Below are positions 2,073 to 29,843 of a DNA stretch of 30,005 bases, piece by piece. Origin of the DNA: a virus; the IMG/VR virus record IMGVR_UViG_3300030106_005012, positions 1 through 30,005 of that record; one strand, written 5' to 3'. The position numbers were made by a program, and so were the translations under genes. The notes under the pieces are model-generated. The model was given only the letters and a program-made list of their open reading frames with translations. It was not told where the DNA came from and ran no database searches. How positions within the stretch are numbered: the first letter of the stretch is position 1; every line of letters begins with the position of its first letter.

Positions 2073-2088
2073 GGAAAAAGTATACCAT

Positions 2089-2144
2089 AAAAAAACCTAC
2101 ACTTGCTTACACAAGAAAAGAAAAGAAAAGTAAACAAGTGTAGG
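2089..2144 (-). terminator. intrinsic terminator T1 (leftward)
   Basis: Arms CCTACACTTG at 2096-2105 and CAAGTGTAGG at 2135-2144 are perfectly complementary. After one mismatch the stem continues for four more pairs (2107-2110 with 2130-2133). The loop is a repeated AAAAG purine tract on the plus strand (pyrimidine on the transcript). Seven A residues at 2089-2095 give a U7 tract on the minus strand, so it terminates leftward transcription. The plus-strand side (ATTTTA) is a weaker U-tract. Confidence 0.85.
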
Positions 2145-2193
2145 ATTTTAACCTACTATCTACCGAAAGGTAATAGATATAGGAGAAGAAACA
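2089..2193 (-). ncRNA. candidate phage small RNA (~105 nt)
   Basis: A sigma-70-like leftward promoter at 2199-2227 lies about 105 nt upstream of terminator T1, with no convincing minus-strand frame between them. The predicted RNA starts near 2193 with a pyrimidine-rich leader. It then folds a hairpin over 2152-2183: outer arms CCTA/TAGG, inner arms UAUU/ACC-type pairing around a four-base loop at 2165-2168, with small bulges. It ends in the T1 stem, whose loop is a CUUUU repeat, plus U7. Promoter, structure and terminator are seen in the sequence; expression is inferred. The 5' leader contains UCUCCUA, complementary to the core of the AGGAGA sites before the genes at 22547 and 29855. Confidence 0.5.
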
Positions 2194-2198
2194 TATAT

Positions 2199-2227
2199 AT
2201 GTTAAATAGTAGTTTGTCCTTTGTCAA
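2199..2227 (-). promoter_or_regulatory. sigma-70-like leftward promoter for the candidate small RNA
   Basis: On the minus strand TTGACA (2222-2227) is separated by exactly 17 nt from TAACAT (2199-2204). The -35 box is a perfect consensus match and the -10 matches 4 of 6. It begins four bases after the U-tract of terminator T2, so it would restart transcription directly after termination. Confidence 0.6.
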
Positions 2228-2231
2228 TAAT

Positions 2232-2278
2232 AAAAACCCCACACCTGAAAAGAGAAAGGTAAAACAGGTGTGGGGTTT
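2232..2278 (-). terminator. intrinsic terminator T2 (leftward)
   Basis: A perfect 14-bp stem: AAACCCCACACCTG at 2234-2247 and CAGGTGTGGGGTTT at 2265-2278, with a 17-nt purine-rich loop. The minus-strand transcript ends GGGG then U5, so it is oriented for leftward transcription. It is the main candidate for ending transcription from the replication operon or from the promoter candidate at 2513-2541. Confidence 0.85.
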
Positions 2279-2337
2279 AGGGTCTGCGAGCAATTATAGG
2301 AGTTGGGAGGCTCATAGCTGTGCAAAAGAGGTCTTGC

Positions 2338-2371
2338 TTACTGGAGAAAATCTGGACAAAATATCCAGTAA
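2338..2371. repeat. inverted repeat with alternative pairing
   Basis: TTACTGGA at 2338-2345 and TCCAGTAA at 2364-2371 are perfect 8-bp arms. Between them, CTGGA at 2352-2356 can instead pair with TCCAG at 2364-2368. The two pairings use the same right arm and so exclude each other in the RNA. The element lies in the transcribed spacer upstream (in the leftward sense) of T2. Its role is unknown. Confidence 0.6.
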
Positions 2372-2512
2372 ACAGCGAATTTTTATTTTATATACCTAGG
2401 GATAAATAACAATGTTGTTAAGTGCATACGTTAGTAGGAGGTACACGATAGTCAACAAACACATTTAGGTACACAGCATATTTAATAATTGCTCGAATAT
2501 TTAATTTTGTAA

Positions 2513-2541
2513 ATTATATATACAATTTACAAACAAAGCAA
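2513..2541 (-). promoter_or_regulatory. possible leftward promoter with overlapping palindrome
   Basis: On the minus strand TTGCTT (2536-2541) lies 17 nt from a perfect TATAAT (2513-2518), just after the stop codon of the 2557-3069 gene. A perfect inverted repeat, TTGTAAATT at 2507-2515 and AATTTACAA at 2524-2532, covers the -10 box and could be an operator. The -35 matches only 3 of 6, and the region is so AT-rich that a chance match is possible. If real, it would make an RNA of about 275 nt ending at T2. Confidence 0.35.
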
Positions 2542-3091: not shown

Positions 3092-4075
3092 CTATAATAA
3101 TACAGGTTGTGTTGATGTTATTCTTCTAACTGCAATGTCTAGGTATTCCTTATTAAGATCAACACCAACGCTTTTTCTACCATACTTTTGTGCTACTGCT
3201 GTTGTAGTCCCAGAACCTACGAATGGGTCTAAAACCACACCATCTTTAGGGCAACCCGCCAGTATGCAGGGTTCAATTAATTTTTCTGGGAATGTAGCAA
3301 AGTGTACCTCTGAATATGGTTGTGTGGCTATGGTCCAAACACTGCGTTTGTTACGGCCATTAGGGTGTGTAGCGTTTGGCATTGCTTTTTTTTGACTTGT
3401 ACCCATGGTTAAGTCTATTTGTTTCCTAGCTGGACCTGTAGGGTGGTCTATCATTCCCTTGCCTCCGTAATTGTCCCATGACGCTTCGTTACCAGTTATT
3501 TCTCTTATAGCATCAGCATCATAGTAGTATTTAGGACTCTTGGTTAACAGGAAGATATACTCATGTGCTTTAGTTGGCCTGTCGTGTACACTTTCAGGCA
3601 TTGGGTTAGGTTTACTCCAGATTATATCTGACCTTAGATACCAACCATCTGCTTGTAAAGCAAAAGCAACTTTCCAAGGGATACCAACTAGATCTTTTGG
3701 TTTTAATCCTGGAACAGCTTTACGAGAGGTACCAACACCATCTTTTCCTAGCTGACCTCTGTTTACATAATTAGAAGATTTCCTAACTGTTTGTTCGGGT
3801 TCAGCACCGCCTTGGCTACTATAACTATCCCCAAGATTTAACCAGACAGTGCCAGTTGGTTTCAACACTCTCCAGACTTCCCTAAAAACTTCAACCATTG
3901 TGTTAGCATATTCTTCTGGGGATTCTTCTAAACCTATTTGCCCATTAATCCCATAATCCCTAAGCCCATAGTAAGGGGGGCTAGTAACTACACAATCAAC
4001 AGAACCATCTGGTATTGGTATCTGTCTGCTATCGCAGTTGTACAAGGTTACAAATTCATTATTAAATATTTCCAT
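3092..4075 (-). CDS. DNA amino-methyltransferase, beta class (N4-cytosine or N6-adenine)
   Basis: S-adenosylmethionine-dependent DNA methyltransferase of the N6_N4_Mtase family. The catalytic motif TSPPYYGL lies at residues 31-38 and the SAM-binding motif DPFVGSGTT at 283-291. This order, catalytic motif first, defines the beta class. The SPPY form is most common in N4-cytosine enzymes, although some N6-adenine enzymes share it, so the modified base is not certain. A target-recognition stretch fills roughly residues 90-260. At 327 residues it is full length. AAGGAGAAGG precedes the start. No partner restriction enzyme lies nearby, so it is a solitary phage methyltransferase, most likely protecting phage DNA from host restriction. 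The C5 methyltransferase is directly upstream. Confidence 0.93.
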   Translation of the reverse strand: MEIFNNEFVTLYNCDSRQIPIPDGSVDCVVTSPPYYGLRDYGINGQIGLEESPEEYANTMVEVFREVWRVLKPTGTVWLNLGDSYSSQGGAEPEQTVRKSSNYVNRGQLGKDGVGTSRKAVPGLKPKDLVGIPWKVAFALQADGWYLRSDIIWSKPNPMPESVHDRPTKAHEYIFLLTKSPKYYYDADAIREITGNEASWDNYGGKGMIDHPTGPARKQIDLTMGTSQKKAMPNATHPNGRNKRSVWTIATQPYSEVHFATFPEKLIEPCILAGCPKDGVVLDPFVGSGTTTAVAQKYGRKSVGVDLNKEYLDIAVRRITSTQPVLL

Positions 4076-4091
4076 TCCTTCTCCTTTATTT

Positions 4092-5009
4092 TTACAATAG
4101 TTTCTCTATTATTTTTTTAACTACTACAGTAGTAACAGCATTTCCTAGAGTTTTATATCTCTGGGTGTCTGACAATCCTTCGGTCCAACCATCAGGGAAT
4201 CCTTGTAGCCGTTCCACTTCTGTAGGTACTAGTTTTCTTACACCGTCATTTGTTAGAATTAACGGGACATTATGCCCCCCTGTGCCCATGTTGGCTGTTA
4301 GAGTAGGGCAAATATTATTTTTATTTTCTCTTACATAAACTCTCCGCCATTGATAAAATGTGTCTTTAGAAGTAATGTGTTTTATTAAATCTTTGTACAT
4401 ATATTTATCTGCCCGATAATAAAATTTTTCATCTGCTGTTGGTTTTATTATGTCCGTAATGTTAGGCATAGTATTTGAATAAGTAAAAGAAAAAAAATCG
4501 TCAGAGATCTTATTTTCAAAACTTCCGACAATAAAGACCCTCTCTCGGTTTTGTGGAACACCATGATCTTTACTGTTAAGAACCTGCCATTCAACTCCAT
4601 ATCCTAAAGCGGAGAGAACCCTAAGAATTGTTTGGAAAGTTTCTCCCTTGTCGTGTGATAGCAAACCTTTGACGTTTTCAAGTAACAAATATTTGGGCCG
4701 TTTAGCTAAAAGAATCCTTGCGATATCAAAAAAGAGAGTTCCTCTAGTTTCGTTAAATCCTTCACGCCTGCCTGCTACACTAAATGCTTGGCAAGGGAAT
4801 CCTCCAACCAAAAGGTCAAAGTCTGGGAGCTGCTCCCCATCGATTGTAGTTGCGTTTCCGTAATTCTTTACTCCTGGAAAATGTTTTTCGTATACCTGTA
4901 TTGCATACTTATCTATTTCAGAATACCCGATAACTTCTACTTCTTTCGATGCCATTTGAATACCTAATTCAAAACCGCCTATTCCACTAAATAAACTAAA
5001 TACTTTCAT
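4092..5009 (-). CDS. DNA (cytosine-5)-methyltransferase
   Basis: A complete 305-residue C5-cytosine methyltransferase (Dcm family). It transfers a methyl group from SAM to carbon 5 of cytosine in DNA. Visible motifs: I, FSLFSGIGGFELG (residues 4-16); IV, GGFPCQAFS with catalytic Cys73; VI, ENVKG (111-115); VIII, QNRERVF (153-159); and X, TLGNAVTT near the C-terminus. The target-recognition region between VIII and IX is short, as expected for phage enzymes. The start overlaps the stop of the RusA gene by 4 nt (ATGA), so the two are translationally coupled. The recognition sequence cannot be read from the protein. Likely role: self-modification against host restriction. Confidence 0.95.
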   Translation of the reverse strand: MKVFSLFSGIGGFELGIQMASKEVEVIGYSEIDKYAIQVYEKHFPGVKNYGNATTIDGEQLPDFDLLVGGFPCQAFSVAGRREGFNETRGTLFFDIARILLAKRPKYLLLENVKGLLSHDKGETFQTILRVLSALGYGVEWQVLNSKDHGVPQNRERVFIVGSFENKISDDFFSFTYSNTMPNITDIIKPTADEKFYYRADKYMYKDLIKHITSKDTFYQWRRVYVRENKNNICPTLTANMGTGGHNVPLILTNDGVRKLVPTEVERLQGFPDGWTEGLSDTQRYKTLGNAVTTVVVKKIIEKLL

Positions 5010-16384: not shown

Positions 16385-16465
16385 TAGATCAATTTGTGAT
16401 TTTTTATTAAAAAATAATAAATTTTCGCCGCATTATAATATATATAATAATAATAAATATATAAT

Positions 16466-16513
16466 ATTAACTTGCATATAATTTGTTTAGGCAAATTAAA
16501 TATGCAAGTTAAT
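16466..16513 (+). repeat. long hairpin before the terminase small subunit gene
   Basis: Fourteen perfect pairs (16466-16479 with 16500-16513), a two-base bulge, then six more pairs (16480-16485 with 16492-16497) around a six-base loop TTTAGG. No U-tract follows. It ends 40 nt before the ATG at 16554. It could regulate translation of the terminase genes, protect the transcript, or act as a recognition site in DNA. Confidence 0.7.
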
Positions 16514-16553
16514 GTAATACAAAGAAAGAAAACCAGCAAAAGAAAGAAAATTT

Positions 16554-17027
16554 ATGGAAAATGAGCCAAAGCCAAAGATGAGCATGGAGTATCGTAATCA
16601 AAAAACGATAACGAACAAAAAATTGTTAATCAAGGCTGTTGAGGAGCTTGGTGGAAACATGAAAGCGATCAAGGCTGCGGGAATATCCGCGAGGACTTAC
16701 AGCAGGTGGATGAAAGAAGATCCTGAGTTTAGGGATGATATAGAAAAAGCCAGGGTGGCCTTTGGTGAAAGTATGCTAGAGGTTGCGATTGACAGAATAA
16801 AGAATCCTGACAAAGGCAAGGGTAGTGATGTATTATTGATATCGTTATTAAATGCGTATCTTAGTCACATATTCAGGCCGACAGCTGTTGTTGGTGAGGA
16901 TACAGCGAAGGAATTAATTACGGAATGGCGTAAAGCTGCGAGAGCAGATGCAAAAAACAAGGTTGACAACCCGTTATCGGAAAATATGGAAGACACTCTT
17001 GATGATATTTTAAGCAAGAAAAAATAA
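16554..17027 (+). CDS. terS: terminase small subunit
   Basis: A 157-residue protein directly before the large terminase gene, which is its standard position. Residues about 24-62 contain a helix-turn-helix (AIKAAGISARTYSRWMKEDPEFRDDIEKA), the DNA-recognition fold of terminase small subunits that select phage DNA for packaging. A central helical part likely forms the ring, and the Lys-rich end is flexible. The site before the ATG is a weak GAAAG. The stop overlaps the next start by one base (TAATG), coupling the pair. Confidence 0.85.
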   Translation: MENEPKPKMSMEYRNQKTITNKKLLIKAVEELGGNMKAIKAAGISARTYSRWMKEDPEFRDDIEKARVAFGESMLEVAIDRIKNPDKGKGSDVLLISLLNAYLSHIFRPTAVVGEDTAKELITEWRKAARADAKNKVDNPLSENMEDTLDDILSKKK

Positions 17028-18391
17028 TGGCCACAGAAACAAAGAAACCTAACATTAGGGATATAGTTTTCAACCATATTGGGTTTAATCCCACTAAGGA
17101 ACAGCAGGTTATTATTGATTCTCCTTACAGGTTTAATCTTGTAGCTGGTGGTGAGCAGGCAGGAAAAAGCATGATAGCTAGTAAATATCTGCTTTACCAA
17201 TATTTTTTACATGACGAAGAAACCTATGGCCCTGGATTATACTGGCTGGTAGCAGCAGATTATGAGCGTACAAGGGCTGAATTCGAATATTTAAGGGATA
17301 ACTTTACGGAACTCGGATTATTAGCTGAATGTTCTAAGAGAGTAGACCCAGGATATATTTTAATGAAAGATGGTACGAGGATAGAAACCAAATCTGCCAA
17401 AGACCATAGAACCTTAGCGATGAAAGCACCGAATGGAATATTGGGCTGCGAAGCATCACAGCTAGACCTTGATACCTTTCATAGATTGATGGGAAGATGT
17501 GCTCCGAAAAAGGGATGGTTATTTCTTTCAGGGACATTTGAAGGCTCTCTTGGTTGGTATCCACAAATGTTTACCGCATGGGCTAGCGGTGCGGATAAAG
17601 AAGCAAGATCTTACAGTTTACCAAGCTGGACCAATATTAATTTATACCCAGAAGGTAGAGATGACCCAGAAATAAAACGATTGGAAGCATTATCCAGTGA
17701 TGATTTCTTTATGGAACGTATCGCAGGTAAGCCAAGTCCTCCCAGAGGGTTGGTATTTCCAGAGTTCAGGCCAGATATTCACGTTAAAGATGTGGAATAT
17801 GAGAAGGGAACGCCAGTACATTTATGGATGGACCCAGGTTATGCAGGAGCATATGCGGTAATTGCAGTGCAAATTGTGAACGAACAGATACGAATTATTG
17901 ACGAAATCTACGAACAAGCGTTAATTACTGACGAAATCATTGATATTGCTACTGCAAAACCATGGTGGGGTGATGTACAATTCGGCGTGATTGACATAGC
18001 AGGTAACCAACATCAGGCGATGGCGGCACCTGCAGAGCTATGGTTAGACAAAGCTGGCTTGTTTATGTCCAGTCAGAAAATAAAAATAAACGAAGGCTCT
18101 GAACGATTGAAATCCTGGCTTAAAATTGACCCTACTACCCATGAAGCAAAAGTAATTATACACCCAAAATGTCAGGGAATATTGTCAGAGTTCGGGGCTT
18201 CACCTAATCCGTTTGACGGACAGACTAAAGCATACAGGTGGAAAACCGACAGAGAGGGCAATATTGTAGGAGATGTTCCAGAAGACAAATACAACCATAG
18301 TGTTAAAGCATTAATTTATGGACTTATTGATAGATTTGGCTATGGATATGTTCAAAACAGAGACACGATTCGTGTAAAAAGGTGGGCGTAA
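17027..18391 (+). CDS. terL: terminase large subunit (packaging ATPase/nuclease)
   Basis: The motor that drives DNA into the head and cuts it. The N-terminal ATPase shows Walker A GGEQAGKS (41-48) and an acidic Walker B-like strand GILGCEAS (137-144) with Glu142 as a likely catalytic acid. The RNase H-like nuclease starts at about 265 with WMDPGYAG (Asp269), continues with GVIDIAG near 330, and has a final conserved helix, DKYNHSVKALIYGL, near 425-438. At 454 residues it is a usual length. There is no separate Shine-Dalgarno; translation probably depends on the upstream gene. The portal gene follows with no gap. Confidence 0.93.
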   Translation: MATETKKPNIRDIVFNHIGFNPTKEQQVIIDSPYRFNLVAGGEQAGKSMIASKYLLYQYFLHDEETYGPGLYWLVAADYERTRAEFEYLRDNFTELGLLAECSKRVDPGYILMKDGTRIETKSAKDHRTLAMKAPNGILGCEASQLDLDTFHRLMGRCAPKKGWLFLSGTFEGSLGWYPQMFTAWASGADKEARSYSLPSWTNINLYPEGRDDPEIKRLEALSSDDFFMERIAGKPSPPRGLVFPEFRPDIHVKDVEYEKGTPVHLWMDPGYAGAYAVIAVQIVNEQIRIIDEIYEQALITDEIIDIATAKPWWGDVQFGVIDIAGNQHQAMAAPAELWLDKAGLFMSSQKIKINEGSERLKSWLKIDPTTHEAKVIIHPKCQGILSEFGASPNPFDGQTKAYRWKTDREGNIVGDVPEDKYNHSVKALIYGLIDRFGYGYVQNRDTIRVKRWA

Positions 18392-22546: not shown

Positions 22547-22909
22547 ATGGCGCTAAATAATAATTCATTTTCAAACTTTTTATCAGGAGACCAGTGGGGC
22601 TCTTTGTCGCCATCTGTAGGTGAAATGGTGTTATCTCAAATGCCACAAGCACAATATATGGATTATGCAGAACGCACGTTTGGTGGTCGTGGAAGAAGAG
22701 GTAGAGCCGCACAACAAGCATATGGCGATGTGTACAATCAATATTTAGGGGAAATCGGACGATCTTTGCGAGAAGGTCAAACACCTGCAACGTTCAAAGA
22801 TTTTCTTGGTACTGATCCGTTTACTAAACGATATAGCCAATTGCCACAATTTGAACGTGGTGTAACACAAACTATGACTAATCCAAGAACGAGGTTTATT
22901 TTTTACTAA
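22547..22909 (+). CDS. hypothetical small virion-region protein (120 aa)
   Basis: A 120-residue protein with Arg/Gly-rich segments (FGGRGRRGRAAQQAY) and aromatic ends (NPRTRFIFY). Starts after AGGAGATAAT. It resembles the C-terminal part of the 767-residue neighbour in composition (repeated Gln-Tyr, Ala-Gln turns) and may work with it; I see no clear alignment. The stop overlaps the start of the giant gene by one base (TAATG). Confidence 0.75.
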   Translation: MALNNNSFSNFLSGDQWGSLSPSVGEMVLSQMPQAQYMDYAERTFGGRGRRGRAAQQAYGDVYNQYLGEIGRSLREGQTPATFKDFLGTDPFTKRYSQLPQFERGVTQTMTNPRTRFIFY

Positions 22910-25900
22910 TGGTACAAGATAACAAAAATATATTTCAAAAAGCGTGGGAAAGTGGTCCTGTTCAAGGGTTTTTTAATTACCCTGAATATCTGCGAGACGA
23001 AGGTATACAGCGAGTTATGGAAGCCAATGAGGCTTTTAATGAAAAAGGATTTTTAGGTGGCTTGGGACATGTGTCCAGAGAGTACGCAAGTGATATAGTT
23101 GGATTTCCTTCCGCAATAGTAGGCCTGCCAAATGAACTAGCTGAATGGCTGGACCCGTCTACCGAAACACAAATAGGTAGCATGGTGGAATCTGCATACG
23201 AAAATCACCGACAAACATACGGCAAAGATCCGTCAATGGCAGAAAAATACGATATTATGCAAAACGTACAAAACCAAGTTAGTCCATGGTTGACAGAAAC
23301 TGTACCTATAGCAGGTATGGATGTTACTAAAAGAGGATTAATTGGATTACCAGTAGCGGGAGCAGCGTTTGCCGCAGAAGTTGCAGTAACAGGAGGTACG
23401 GCAGCTATAGCAAAAGGTTTAGCAAAAAAAGGTGTGCGTGAATCTGTGGAAAAAGCACCACAAACATTAGCAAAACAATTTGCGGAAGGCACAAAAGATG
23501 TTGCAAGAGAAACAACAAGGCAAGCATTATTGATACCAAAAAGAATTGATGATGTTGTAGCATCAACACTAAAATACACAGTCGGTAAACCTTTACAATA
23601 TAGTGCTAAATTAACATTAGCTGGAGGGAAAAAAGGTTTTGATATTTCCAAAGCAGGTTTATATGCAATACCAGGTGGTAAATATGCCGCTGATGTTTTG
23701 TGGAGCCGTGCGACAGGAAAGGCTGCAGAAAGAAATCTTGCATCAGAAAAATCAACACGAGAAAAATTTAGAGAAGCAGGAAAGAGACAATTTGGTACTG
23801 AATGGAAAGATGATTGGTCAAATATTGAAGATGATTTAGATGATATGTTTCTTGCAGAAGCAGGCGGGGGAGTCTATGAGGGGGCACGAAGACCTGAAGG
23901 CGTTCCTAGAATATCTGGCGACATATTTGGTCCTGACCCTAATTACGAAGAAGCATATGTTAAAAGAAGCTGGTGGGATATGTTAAAAGGTGTGTGGCGA
24001 GGGCTTCCTGGAGAAAGCCATGGAGAAGCCATAATGAAAGCTATAAAATCTAAAGACGCGGAGCTTGAAGAAATAATACAAACAATGTCGCAAAGAGATT
24101 ATAATTTATGGATTGCTTTTATGAGAATGTTAGAAACAGAAGAATATTTTGGGAAAACTATTAAACAAAACAAAGGAACTAAAGGAAAAGGAAAAGCAGA
24201 ATATGCTCAACAAACTGGTGAAGGTTTTACCTTAACAGATGAAGAATTGCAAAGATTAGGACTGCGGTCACGCGATGTGACGTTTCAAAAAGAAATAGAA
24301 GTTGATGAACAGTATTATAACGAAATGATAGCGTCAGGAAAATCACGCACAGTACGAGTGGACGGTAAAAAGTATTTTACAAACCCACGCAACTTAAACG
24401 GTGGTGGCCCAGGAGTAGGTGACGTTATTCAAAACTTTGACAAATACGAGGCGGCTTTAAAAGCATTAAAAGTAAATATTGATGATAAAGTATTAGATCG
24501 ATGGGGAGCATTAGACGAAAGTATTAATGCAAAAGCAATATTGCTTGGCGATAACGGAGGAAGGAAATTAAAAGGCGAAGAGTTGTCTGCTTACGATATT
24601 ATGGGGGCCATGAGAAACATATGGCAAAAATATGAAAACCAAGGTATACGAGACGGGGCTGCAGGAGCTGGGTTAGGACTAGCTACTACATATGCAAAAA
24701 CCGCAGATGGTTATTTGGTTCAGGGCAAAGGTGGAGCAAATGTTGCAAGAAAAATAGTAATAGAAGAAGCAGATAGAACTGATGAAGCTAGGTCTTATTG
24801 GTTGACAGAAGCTCCCGAAGAACGAACAATTCCTAGTGAAGCATTGCTTATACATAGAGGGTATAGGTTAGCAAATCCCGCAGAAGCATTGTTAGATCGT
24901 GCAAATTTTATAGGTAATTCTTGGAAAACAGCCAAGCAACGAGAGTTTGTAAAAAGAATGTCTAATGCTTTAGGGCTTAAACACGGCACACTAGAAGAGC
25001 TTGTTGGTCCAAAAATATTTGATGATATTAATAAAAGTTATTTAAGAATAAGAAACATTTTTAATGGAATACCGACTAAAGCGGCACGATCAATAGCTAA
25101 TGAATTAAATGAAATTACTAACGAACAAAATTTTGCAAGGCTTGTAAAAACAGGAGACGATTCTGCTACAAATACTATAAGAAAAGAAATGGTCAGGCTT
25201 GAAAAAGTAACTGGCACTACAAACGCAAAAATAAGAAATGCAATGAAAGGCAAAAATTGGACCGCTGCTCAAAGAAAAGAAGTAAACCTTTTATTAAAAC
25301 GAGCTGAAAAACAAATCGGCAAAATATTTAAAGAAGCAGGAGACGGGGTAGAAATTATAAAAGGGCTTCAAAAACCTACTGGACAAACTTCAGCAGGGTT
25401 TTTTGAAGATTATTATTTTCCAGAAGAATTGCATAACGCATTAACAAAAGGAATTAATGATTTGTATAAAATTAATTCCGAACAAAGGCAAAACGCTTTC
25501 TCAATAGCAAATAATCTAAGTCGTACCTTTTCGGCAACTGGAGACTTTAGTGCCGTAGCAATACAAGGGTTGTTGCCTTTGTTAAACGATTTAAAACTAC
25601 GAGCAAATAAAGCTGGCGTAAAAGGATTAGGAGTGCTTAGTCAAGGCGATACCTTTAATGCAATAGGCGATATGTTTAAATCATTTTTAAGGGATGGGGA
25701 AAGGGTAGCTGGTGAATTTTTCCTAAGAGCAGATACATTTGCAAGATTAAATGGGTTAGGAACAGTAGATGATGCAATACAATCAGGTGTAAAAATATTA
25801 GGCAATGCCCCCGACCAATTTGTTAACGCAAGGCAATGGGGAGCTTTAAACAGAATTCCAAGTTTGCGTAATTTTGACAGGTCCTTTACTCATTTTGGAA

Positions 25901-28173
25901 ATGTTATGAGGTACCAAGTATGGAACCTCGAAATGCAAATAAGAGCATTAGAAAAAGGAATGACTGTCAGACAGCTTATTGATAGTGGTGATGCTGCGCA
26001 AATAGCAAATATTGTTAACAAAATGACTGGTGTGGGTAAACGTGGCTATGGCGGAAACTTAGGCGAGTTTTTGTTGTTTGCACCGCGATTTTTTAAAGGA
26101 AGACTAGACACACTAGGAAATGCTTTAGGTGGCACCCTTAAGGGGCAAGACGCATCGCTACAACAAGCTATTGCAAGAAAATACATGATGACTATGTTGG
26201 GAATGGGAACAACATTAACAGTAGGTATAAATACTATGATGGGGGAAGAAACGGATTTCCAACCCTGGAAACAAAACGAAGCCACAGGTGAGTGGTATTT
26301 TAATCCCAACTTTATGCGTACACATATAGGAGAACTAGATATTAGTTTCTTTGGTACATGGGATACTTTGTTTAGATTAATACAAACACCAGCAATGCTT
26401 TATGTAAACCAACTAAATGACGACAAATTATTTGATTCTAACCAAATGTTAGCAGATCTCCGAAGTATAGTTAGTGGCCCATTGTTAAGTAAATCGTGGG
26501 ATTTAATAACAGGGGAAGATGGTATTGGCCAAAGAACAAGGTCGGTATTAAAAACAGACGAAGATACTGGAATGATTACAGAAGAAAACTGGTTTACCAG
26601 TTGGAACTCTACGAAGCAAGTTGGTGAAACTTTGATTGAAGGGTTTATTCCGTTTGCTTGGGACGATGTAGCGTTTGATAGCCCAGGAAAACCAAGTGTT
26701 GTTAAACGAGCAGCAAATGGTTTAGTTCAAGGTTTTACTGGTAAAGAAGGAGACCGAATGGAAGGGTTCCAGGAAGCAGGTACTGCAGGTGCTCAGTTTG
26801 TTGGCCAATTCTTTGGCGTTAAAAGTAGTTATGAAACCTTAAGTGAAGTTATGGATGAAGCCGAAGCTGGAATTTTAGAACTTGGGGCATCTGATGTTCG
26901 GTTACAAGAAGCATTTGGAATGAATGAAAAAGAGCTTGGCATATATCTAGCTCAACATGGGAAAGAAGTTTGGGACAATGGCACTTTAAATATATCATCA
27001 TTGCGAGGGTTATTAGCTGGAGAAAGAACTCCCGACTTTAGTGACATAGCTAAAGACTACCAGAAAAACATACAGAGCATGCAAGAAGAAGGTAGGTTCC
27101 CAGAGTTCTTTACGCCACAACAATGGGAAGAAGTTCAAAAACAATACAACGACAAATTGTATGGCAACAGAAGTGAATATTCTATGTATACAATAAAAAG
27201 AGATTCTTTAATGGATCAAGAGCAAACAGAATTAGCAAACCTAGAAAATGCTTTTAAACAAGGAAAGATATATGAAAACCCAATAACAGGTGAAAAAATA
27301 GATACGGGCAAAATGCAAGACATGTCTACATATTATAACATGACTCGAAAAATACGATCAAACTATGCACAAACCCGTAGAAATTTAACCGACCCAATTA
27401 ATGGTGAATTTAGAAATTTAGATGAGTTGTTTAAATTTGGAAGAAACACTGCATTAGGTTCTGTATCTTCGGCAGATGCAGATATATATGATTATGGCCA
27501 AGCCTCATATTATGAAAAAGTTTGGGGAGAAGACGGGGCCATAATGGCAGATGGTGAGGTAAATTGGGAAAAACGAGAAATTATAATTAGCCGATGGGCA
27601 GAAGATATGAAAGAAAAATATCCTTCTTTAACAGAAGCAGATATTGCATCTTATTTGCTAAGAATAGAAAAGAAAGCAAAAGCTGACGCACCTCCCATGC
27701 AAAGAGCAATGACAGAAATGACAACTTATATACAGGAAGCAGGATATTACGACATAGAAAGAAACACTTTTTATGACTTGATAGACCGAATGAATATTCA
27801 AGGACCCGAAAGACAAAATTTAATAACACAATATGCTCGATGGAAAATACAAACTCCACAAGACAAAAAAACATTGGAAGAAACAGTTCCAATACTAAGA
27901 GAAGTTACAAGAATAGCAACAGAAAAAAAGAAAATATTCAGAGCAAATAATTCTAGGGTAGATGCTATGTTAAGAATTGTTGGCTCTAGCAAATCAAAAG
28001 TTGCTTTAAGCAACTGGGGCATGTTTGTTGATAATGTTATGAACGCAAACAGGCGAAAACCAATACCAGAAGAAAAAATGTTAAGTTTTCTTTACGATCT
28101 TTTAAACGAGGAGGTTGGATATAGTAAATCATATAACAAATTTTATGAACTTAATAATGAAGGAAATATATAG
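22909..28173 (+). CDS. giant putative internal virion / ejected protein (1754 aa)
   Basis: By far the largest gene in the window. Largely helical and Lys/Glu/Gln-rich, with hydrophobic segments at about 142-175 (LPVAGAAFAAEVAV) and about 1090-1112 (MTMLGMGTTLTVGINTMMG) that could insert in a membrane. No lysozyme, protease or polymerase motif was found by eye. Proteins of this size in short-tailed phages are often stored in the head and ejected to form a channel or act on the host at entry; large polyvalent proteins are another option. There is no Shine-Dalgarno sequence; it relies on coupling to the upstream stop codon. Position between portal and scaffold is unusual for its length. Confidence 0.78.
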   Translation: MVQDNKNIFQKAWESGPVQGFFNYPEYLRDEGIQRVMEANEAFNEKGFLGGLGHVSREYASDIVGFPSAIVGLPNELAEWLDPSTETQIGSMVESAYENHRQTYGKDPSMAEKYDIMQNVQNQVSPWLTETVPIAGMDVTKRGLIGLPVAGAAFAAEVAVTGGTAAIAKGLAKKGVRESVEKAPQTLAKQFAEGTKDVARETTRQALLIPKRIDDVVASTLKYTVGKPLQYSAKLTLAGGKKGFDISKAGLYAIPGGKYAADVLWSRATGKAAERNLASEKSTREKFREAGKRQFGTEWKDDWSNIEDDLDDMFLAEAGGGVYEGARRPEGVPRISGDIFGPDPNYEEAYVKRSWWDMLKGVWRGLPGESHGEAIMKAIKSKDAELEEIIQTMSQRDYNLWIAFMRMLETEEYFGKTIKQNKGTKGKGKAEYAQQTGEGFTLTDEELQRLGLRSRDVTFQKEIEVDEQYYNEMIASGKSRTVRVDGKKYFTNPRNLNGGGPGVGDVIQNFDKYEAALKALKVNIDDKVLDRWGALDESINAKAILLGDNGGRKLKGEELSAYDIMGAMRNIWQKYENQGIRDGAAGAGLGLATTYAKTADGYLVQGKGGANVARKIVIEEADRTDEARSYWLTEAPEERTIPSEALLIHRGYRLANPAEALLDRANFIGNSWKTAKQREFVKRMSNALGLKHGTLEELVGPKIFDDINKSYLRIRNIFNGIPTKAARSIANELNEITNEQNFARLVKTGDDSATNTIRKEMVRLEKVTGTTNAKIRNAMKGKNWTAAQRKEVNLLLKRAEKQIGKIFKEAGDGVEIIKGLQKPTGQTSAGFFEDYYFPEELHNALTKGINDLYKINSEQRQNAFSIANNLSRTFSATGDFSAVAIQGLLPLLNDLKLRANKAGVKGLGVLSQGDTFNAIGDMFKSFLRDGERVAGEFFLRADTFARLNGLGTVDDAIQSGVKILGNAPDQFVNARQWGALNRIPSLRNFDRSFTHFGNVMRYQVWNLEMQIRALEKGMTVRQLIDSGDAAQIANIVNKMTGVGKRGYGGNLGEFLLFAPRFFKGRLDTLGNALGGTLKGQDASLQQAIARKYMMTMLGMGTTLTVGINTMMGEETDFQPWKQNEATGEWYFNPNFMRTHIGELDISFFGTWDTLFRLIQTPAMLYVNQLNDDKLFDSNQMLADLRSIVSGPLLSKSWDLITGEDGIGQRTRSVLKTDEDTGMITEENWFTSWNSTKQVGETLIEGFIPFAWDDVAFDSPGKPSVVKRAANGLVQGFTGKEGDRMEGFQEAGTAGAQFVGQFFGVKSSYETLSEVMDEAEAGILELGASDVRLQEAFGMNEKELGIYLAQHGKEVWDNGTLNISSLRGLLAGERTPDFSDIAKDYQKNIQSMQEEGRFPEFFTPQQWEEVQKQYNDKLYGNRSEYSMYTIKRDSLMDQEQTELANLENAFKQGKIYENPITGEKIDTGKMQDMSTYYNMTRKIRSNYAQTRRNLTDPINGEFRNLDELFKFGRNTALGSVSSADADIYDYGQASYYEKVWGEDGAIMADGEVNWEKREIIISRWAEDMKEKYPSLTEADIASYLLRIEKKAKADAPPMQRAMTEMTTYIQEAGYYDIERNTFYDLIDRMNIQGPERQNLITQYARWKIQTPQDKKTLEETVPILREVTRIATEKKKIFRANNSRVDAMLRIVGSSKSKVALSNWGMFVDNVMNANRRKPIPEEKMLSFLYDLLNEEVGYSKSYNKFYELNNEGNI

Positions 28174-28982: not shown

Positions 28983-29843
28983 ATGGCACAAACAGCAACT
29001 ACAGGTTCTCTTGAGAACGCTCAGAACATAATAATAGCTGCAGCTCGCTACACAGAAGAGCATAACGCTCCAGCTATGAATTTGATTGAGCAGTTCACCC
29101 TACCCAAGGGAGCCAAACAAGTAACAGTTCCAAAGGTAGGACAGATGTCTATGCAAGATCTCACTGATGGGGTCGATATCGTAGACGAGGAAGACATTGG
29201 GATGACCACTGTCGACCTAACCGCATCCGAAGTGGGTGCAAAAATTATTCTCACAGACAAATTGGTTCGCCAATCTGCAGAGAATGTCTTTAGCATGATC
29301 GGACGACAGCTCGGTGATGGTATGGCTAGAAAGAAAGACGTAGACGTGCTAGCTCTTTATTCTGGTTTTAGTACCGACATTGGTGCTGCAGGACGAAGCA
29401 TGAGCTTGGCAAACGTCAGTGCTGCTGTAGCCTATGCTAAAGGTAAGAAGTTTGGTTCTAACGTGTACATTGTTCAACACCCATTTGCGGTATGGGACAT
29501 TGCTAACACAGCAGTAACAGCTTCTAGCACATACCCAGTACCAGCAGGTTGGTCTGCTGACTTACTAGGTAACTTCTTCAGTGGGTTACGCCCAATCAAC
29601 GGTGTACCTATCTTTGAAGATGGTAACATTAGCATTGACAGTAGCGATGATGCAGTTGGTGTTATTGCAGACAGATCTGCATTGGCTGTTCTTAAGTCTG
29701 TTGACATGAATAAAGAACAAGACCGAGACATATCTTTAAGAGCAACAGAGGTAGTTATTACCGCTGACTATGGTGTATTCGAACTTGATGATAGCAAAGG
29801 TGTAGCATTAACACTTGACGCTGGTACACCTGCTACAGCCTAA
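28983..29843 (+). CDS. major capsid protein (HK97 fold)
   Basis: A 286-residue coat protein, after a very strong AAGGAGG, as expected for the most abundant product. It carries the features of HK97-fold coats: an N-terminal helical arm, an E-loop-like stretch (KQVTVPKVGQMS), a helical spine (IGRQLGDGMARKKDVDVL), and a P-domain/A-domain end with a PINGVPIFED-type strand. No N-terminal protease-cleaved delta domain is apparent; the separate scaffold gene upstream replaces it. I could not assign a precise capsid family. Confidence 0.88.
   Translation: MAQTATTGSLENAQNIIIAAARYTEEHNAPAMNLIEQFTLPKGAKQVTVPKVGQMSMQDLTDGVDIVDEEDIGMTTVDLTASEVGAKIILTDKLVRQSAENVFSMIGRQLGDGMARKKDVDVLALYSGFSTDIGAAGRSMSLANVSAAVAYAKGKKFGSNVYIVQHPFAVWDIANTAVTASSTYPVPAGWSADLLGNFFSGLRPINGVPIFEDGNISIDSSDDAVGVIADRSALAVLKSVDMNKEQDRDISLRATEVVITADYGVFELDDSKGVALTLDAGTPATA

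Follow-up and report, generated by a model that had tools for sequence, protein, structure and literature searches.

Genomic context of the locus

The window, i.e., the whole stretch of DNA analyzed here, corresponds to an entire linear viral record of 30,005 bp. A leftward operon extends from 15559 to 2557, and rightward genes begin at 16554. The leftward operon ends 670 bases away from a convergent structural gene on the plus strand (514-1887), and in this intergenic region two consecutive minus-strand noncoding units, designated here as unit 1 and unit 2, were recognized (Table 1). An earlier note on this DNA had flagged unit 2 as a small-RNA gene, but had overlooked both the conserved noncoding unit directly upstream (approximately 2506-2232) and the extended -10 promoter with which the next gene begins, directly after the terminator; the U7 terminator that it described is one of two related hairpins. 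The RNA of interest adjoins the flagged region rather than falling inside it.

A host search found no relative of the terminase in assembled genome contigs, and the phage terminase matches were all below 27% identity among the matches listed. No tRNA or tmRNA was found, and such a reading was rejected, although GTAGG-TTAAAAT-CCTAC in unit 2 is similar to a T arm. Elsewhere in the window, two adjacent minus-strand genes (3092-5009) resemble DNA methyltransferases, as judged from sequence. An inverted repeat of 20 bp with a 20-nt loop (TATAATATTAACTTGCATAT / ATATGCAAGTTAATGTAATA; 16460-16519) is located directly 5' of the small terminase gene, and a 1754-aa protein with no Pfam match is encoded at 22909-28173, among the head genes and between the terminase region and the capsid gene.

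Relatives of the locus were reached via the downstream 63-aa protein and the structural gene on the other side. This approach yielded five records with the same locus, i.e., L009/L002 (G001), L010/L003 (G002), L013/L004 (G005), L005 (G008) and G011 (L112). Together with the window, six sequences were thus compared, effectively representing three lineages.

Table 1. Positions of predicted features at the locus and of reference genes in the window.
Feature	Position	Strand	Remarks
Terminase large subunit	17027-18391
Capsid protein	28983-29843
Primase/helicase	8074-5852
Unit 1, structured noncoding RNA	about 2232..2506	(-)	predicted transcript ~270 nt; position conserved in five relatives
Unit 1 putative -35, TTGCTT	2536..2541	(-)	weak (3/6), 17 nt before -10; sequence
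Unit 1 -10, TATAAT	2513..2518	(-)
P1 5' arm, CGAGCAATTAT	2485..2495	(-)	long-range closing stem
P2 5' arm, GCTGTGT	2471..2477	(-)
P2 3' arm, GCACAGC	2317..2323	(-)
P1 3' arm, ATAATTGCTCG	2287..2297	(-)
Terminator hairpin T1	2234..2278	(-)	14-bp stem, pyrimidine loop; then T5 at 2236-2232, overlapping stem end
Unit 2 promoter, TTGACA-17-TAACAT	2227-2199	(-)	consensus match
Unit 2, predicted short noncoding transcript	2089..2192	(-)	~100 nt; this phage only
Bulged leader hairpin	2152..2183	(-)	not significant
Terminator hairpin T2	2089..2144	(-)	15-bp stem + U7
Extended -10 promoter, TATGGTATACTT (TGGTATACT)	2078..2089	(-)	identical in four relatives; one change in G011
63-aa gene P0001	1881..2072	(-)	82-97% identical in four viral relatives

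Unit 1 has a conserved position and a putative conserved fold

A noncoding stretch ending in a hairpin was common to all six loci. The 5' boundary of unit 1 (position 2503 in the window, TAAATATT(T)CGAG) was similar to that of each of the five relatives (0/1000 shuffles each), and the 3' boundary of the window copy, together with its hairpin, matched those of L010 and L009 (0/500 shuffles). A TATAAT or TATTAT precedes the conserved 5' end by exactly 9 nt in four of the six phages (the window, L009, L005 and L013), the genes upstream of which differ, with three different upstream sequences. The weak -35 of the window is a point against independent transcription of unit 1. L010 and G011 have two small ORFs directly 5' of unit 1, in place of the -10, and in G011 a matching TATAATTCTTCAAA is found 433 nt upstream, before these ORFs.

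The small ORFs directly 5' of the structured RNA begin MATKDSR... and MAKRGLY... (456-862 in L112; upstream of 5743 in L010). The promoter-like TATAATTCTTCAAA adjoins the RNA in L013 and precedes the small ORFs in G011; this arrangement suggests that a gene cassette may have been inserted between promoter and RNA in G011.

Folding of the unit 1 stretch of the window gave a z score of -3.99 (0/200 shuffles). Its P1 stem is a perfect helix of 11 bp with arms 187 nt apart (3/2000 shuffles); no other inverted repeat of this length whose arms are spaced by 100-220 nt occurs in the 30-kb window. When RNAalifold was applied to four relatives, with the window left out, P1, P2 and P3 were recovered as the main helices. 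In hand-anchored counts that included the window, 95.8% of cells were paired, compared with 28-48% when slid, and both-side changes were observed in 7 of 40 pairs (0/500 shuffles); the arms in this alignment were chosen by hand, which favours structure. In the window copy, P1 reaches 11 bp in total: two of its pairs are doubly changed in a compensatory manner (U-A to C-G and C-G to U-A), and two pairs are additional. In P2, both sides have changed in one pair that is now G-C and in another that is now U-G. The positional conservation and the compensatory changes are direct observations, and the latter point to a conserved fold, as seen in few sequences with hand-chosen arms.

The relatives' own folds were weaker, with z scores of -0.3 to -2.4. 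A covariance model built from the relatives missed the window copy even with filters off. The body of this copy has diverged and has no significant sequence similarity to the bodies of the relatives. Homology of the window unit 1 is proposed on the basis of its two ends, its stems and its position. No more distant relatives with unit 1 were detected among the records searched, and nothing at the locus matched an Rfam family at the gathering score, the sub-threshold matches (eukaryotic families and Pseudomon-1) being at chance level.

Conservation of terminator loops is unusual. The pyrimidine loop of the terminator (TGTTTACTTCTCTTTTCA; 2264-2248 in the window) is identical in all five relatives (L009, L010, L013, L005 and L112), despite a difference of approximately 25% in the upstream RNA between the two groups that these relatives form.

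The main rival to an independent RNA, although one that we consider rather unlikely, is that the leftward operon ends in unit 1 as a structured 3' UTR, which would protect the mRNA or aid termination. This reading would account for the fact that unit 1 closes the leftward operon in each phage and directly follows small ORFs in L010 and G011, but not readily for the constant spacing between a -10 hexamer and the conserved 5' end in four of six phages, the upstream genes of which differ. The reading that we favour is that unit 1 is an independently transcribed structured phage RNA.

Unit 2 is a plausible short transcription unit present in this phage only

The minus-strand promoter at the start of unit 2 is present as previously described, i.e., TTGACA (2227-2222) and TAACAT (2204-2199) separated by 17 nt. 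It agrees with the consensus at 10 of 12 positions, and it is by this match that unit 2 is assigned a promoter of its own. The tested intergenic regions contained just three promoter-like sites with a match of 10/12 or more, each with a 17-nt spacer: that of unit 2 and two others (15772, minus; 16356, plus) in the divergent intergenic region separating the leftward and rightward operons. Shuffling of the inter-hairpin stretch produced a site of at least 10/12 in 4.3% of cases, falling to 0.25% when the -35 had to be perfect, making the observed promoter a rare outcome by comparison.

The T2 stem (CCTACACTTGTTTAC / GTAAGCAAGTGTAGG; 2144-2130 / 2110-2096) comprises 15 pairs, including one U-G, and is followed by U7 at 2095-2089, as in a Rho-independent terminator. 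The 109-nt stretch that includes T2 folded at -31.7 kcal/mol (z -7.5; 0/200 shuffles), mostly owing to the T2 stem, such that T2 as a predicted structure is beyond doubt and the intrinsic terminator proposed previously is borne out. The bulged 12-pair hairpin said to lie between promoter and terminator can indeed be drawn, but it lacks significance: the leader folded alone gave a z score of -1.68, with 13/200 shuffles equally good, and the 3' arm of the hairpin competes with GTAGG-TTAAAAT-CCTAC (2156-2140). Consistent with the view that unit 2 holds no convincing reading frame, its 12-codon ORF (MFLLLYLLPFGR, ATG at 2194) has no Shine-Dalgarno (SD) sequence and a negative codon score, and a peptide leader was rejected on these grounds. 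The earlier note's reading of 2227-2089 as a short noncoding RNA that has a promoter of its own and ends at an intrinsic terminator is fair, and unit 2 can plausibly be regarded as a short transcription unit.

The TTGACA-leader-T2 unit was absent from all five relatives carrying the locus. Searches by exact pattern, blastn and handles identified no relatives of unit 2 in the records searched, a set that possibly leaves the record's own near copies outside; a pattern match in one Akkermansia MAG compares with an estimated chance expectation near 0.5. Given its absence from the five relatives, conservation cannot back unit 2, which stands as a candidate phage sRNA with no conservation behind it.

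Each relative has a single hairpin, with the loop TGTTTACTTCTCTTTTCA, followed directly by TATGGTATACTT (with one change in G011) and then by the 63-aa gene in L010 or an 87-aa ORF in L009, L013, L005 and the truncated G011 contig. The window, in contrast, has two related hairpins, of which T1 occupies the place of the relatives' hairpin when seen from upstream and T2 when seen from downstream. The 5' arm and loop of T2 are nearest to the L010/G011 hairpin (0/300 shuffles), while the segment before T2 resembles nothing else and has no recognizable source. With one hairpin in the relatives and two in the window, unit 2 looks like an insertion, and is best read as a lineage-specific insertion flanked by a duplicated terminator. 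That unit 2 might be a degenerate copy of unit 1 was rejected, given that the similarity is limited to the terminator and the part before T2 is dissimilar.

The same hairpin relationship raises the possibility, which we rate below an even chance and on the doubtful side, that unit 2 is no functional RNA but a spacer or relic of the terminator duplication, acting at most as an insulator for the 63-aa gene. The pre-T2 segment with no likeness to anything else and the non-significant leader hairpin are consistent with such an origin; the perfect -35 with 17-nt spacing, seen between the hairpins in only 0.25% of shuffles, argues against it.

The downstream gene appears to have its own promoter

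In the window, the ATG of the 63-aa gene lies 7 nt after the extended -10 (6 nt in L010) and has no SD, suggesting that this gene is possibly leaderless. A distant homologue of the 63-aa protein (L113 2118-1939, 38% identity) also has a TATAAT just before its ATG.

The order of elements, i.e., promoter, structured RNA, intrinsic terminator and gene, is that expected if unit 1, unit 2 or both were cis-regulatory leaders governing read-through into the gene that follows (the 63-aa gene or, in relatives, the 87-aa one). In the leader fold, pairing is also possible between the GTAGG of unit 2 (2156-2152) and the 5' base of the T2 stem. The competing helix, however, has 5 bp as compared with 15 bp for T2, and the extended -10 promoter right after the terminator is conserved in all six phages. 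With an SD-less ATG 7 nt past this -10, a read-through mRNA would have no ribosome site in the window. Since the next gene starts from its own promoter, cis-regulation of this kind is improbable.

Complementarity of unit 2 to Shine-Dalgarno regions does not exceed chance

The earlier note had proposed that unit 2 acts in trans on late-gene translation, with its pyrimidine-rich leader and CUUUU loop complementary to SD regions; on this reading, the two would block the SD sites of late phage genes. The letters do match, in that UCUCCUA is complementary to the UAGGAGA before 22547 and 29855, and the promoter and terminator of unit 2 are credible. The energies, however, are ordinary. Across 32 start regions, the mean duplex energy of the unit 2 leader was -13.4, compared with -13.6 +/- 0.8 for shuffled leaders (54/100 as good), and at the two named targets 65/100 (22547) and 14/100 (29855) shuffled leaders performed equally well. 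The CUUUU loop gave the same outcome, with no excess over chance. Moreover, the predicted unit 2 fold places the CCUA of this motif in a paired segment, and UCUCCUA matches the SD consensus itself and so favours no late gene. Coupled with the absence of unit 2 from the relatives, these findings leave the proposed action on late genes with no support, and we consider an SD-blocking role highly improbable; as judged by duplex energies of leader and loop against shuffles, it was rejected. Pairing of unit 2 with unit 1 was also rejected (15/200 shuffles as good). In pyrimidine-rich leaders, SD complementarity is easily over-read.

Hardly any weight can be given to a plus-strand explanation, in which AGGAGA (2180-2186) is the SD of a 66-codon ORF (2199-2399): the frame is open and an SD-like string precedes its ATG by 12 nt, but this spacing is too long, the L009 equivalent runs into a stop, and the codon score is -0.07, compared with 0.02 to 0.49 for genes and -0.27 +/- 0.23 for non-gene frames.

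Interpretation of the two units

Taken together, the data are best accommodated by a joint reading, to which we assign a probability of roughly 0.5, in which unit 1 is a structured-RNA unit shared among these phages and unit 2 is a lineage-specific terminated short RNA. The sequence features themselves, and the lack of unit 2 in the relatives, are observed directly; from them we infer transcription of the two units and any function. Unit 1 (approximately 2506-2232) would consist of a promoter, a structured RNA and a terminator, common to the five relatives. It most likely gives rise to a stable, independently transcribed RNA closed by the long-range stem, which would act via its fold, e.g., as a protein- or RNA-binding scaffold, and not as a protein gene. 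Unit 2 (2227-2089) would have been added in this lineage, flanked by a second copy of the T1-type terminator. It probably yields a short terminated RNA of approximately 100 nt, with no specific target indicated, and its clearest predicted effect would be to place another strong stop ahead of the 63-aa gene, which has a separate promoter. As a candidate for a working phage RNA, unit 1 is the stronger of the two. More tentatively, and with less than an even chance, unit 1 may represent an undescribed family (approximately 270 nt, with a long-range closing stem and a terminator with a conserved pyrimidine loop), with unit 2 a recent second RNA gene that arose via terminator duplication.

Comparison with known systems

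Beyond lambdoid and enterobacterial systems, the list of known phage noncoding RNAs is, to our knowledge, short. OOP, PreS and VpdS are examples of phage sRNAs that have a promoter and a terminator of their own (PMC12197685). The OOP RNA of lambda is an autonomous phage antisense sRNA with its own promoter, pO, and terminator (PMC12197685). Unit 2 would resemble OOP in being a short transcript from a phage, with a separate promoter and an intrinsic terminator; unlike OOP, which is antisense to cII, it has no annotated gene on the opposite strand. PreS (LPR1) of lambda and VpdS of phage VP882 are phage-encoded trans-acting sRNAs of 50-90 nt (PMC12197685). These are Hfq-dependent and have tested targets, whereas for the candidate unit 2 no target is indicated.

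In the HK022 put-type antiterminator RNAs and riboswitch-type leaders, too, a structured RNA is followed by an intrinsic terminator and a gene. The present locus differs in that a separate promoter for the gene is located past the terminator. GOLLD and ROOL are structured noncoding RNAs in phage genomes and measure several hundred nt, as compared with approximately 270 nt for unit 1, which has no Rfam family match and is a candidate undescribed structured RNA. GOLLD and ROOL have been called large ornate bacterial RNAs (PMC12286853). A structured RNA locus that is held at one genomic place while the neighbouring genes change offers a tractable test case for the use of RNA by phages.
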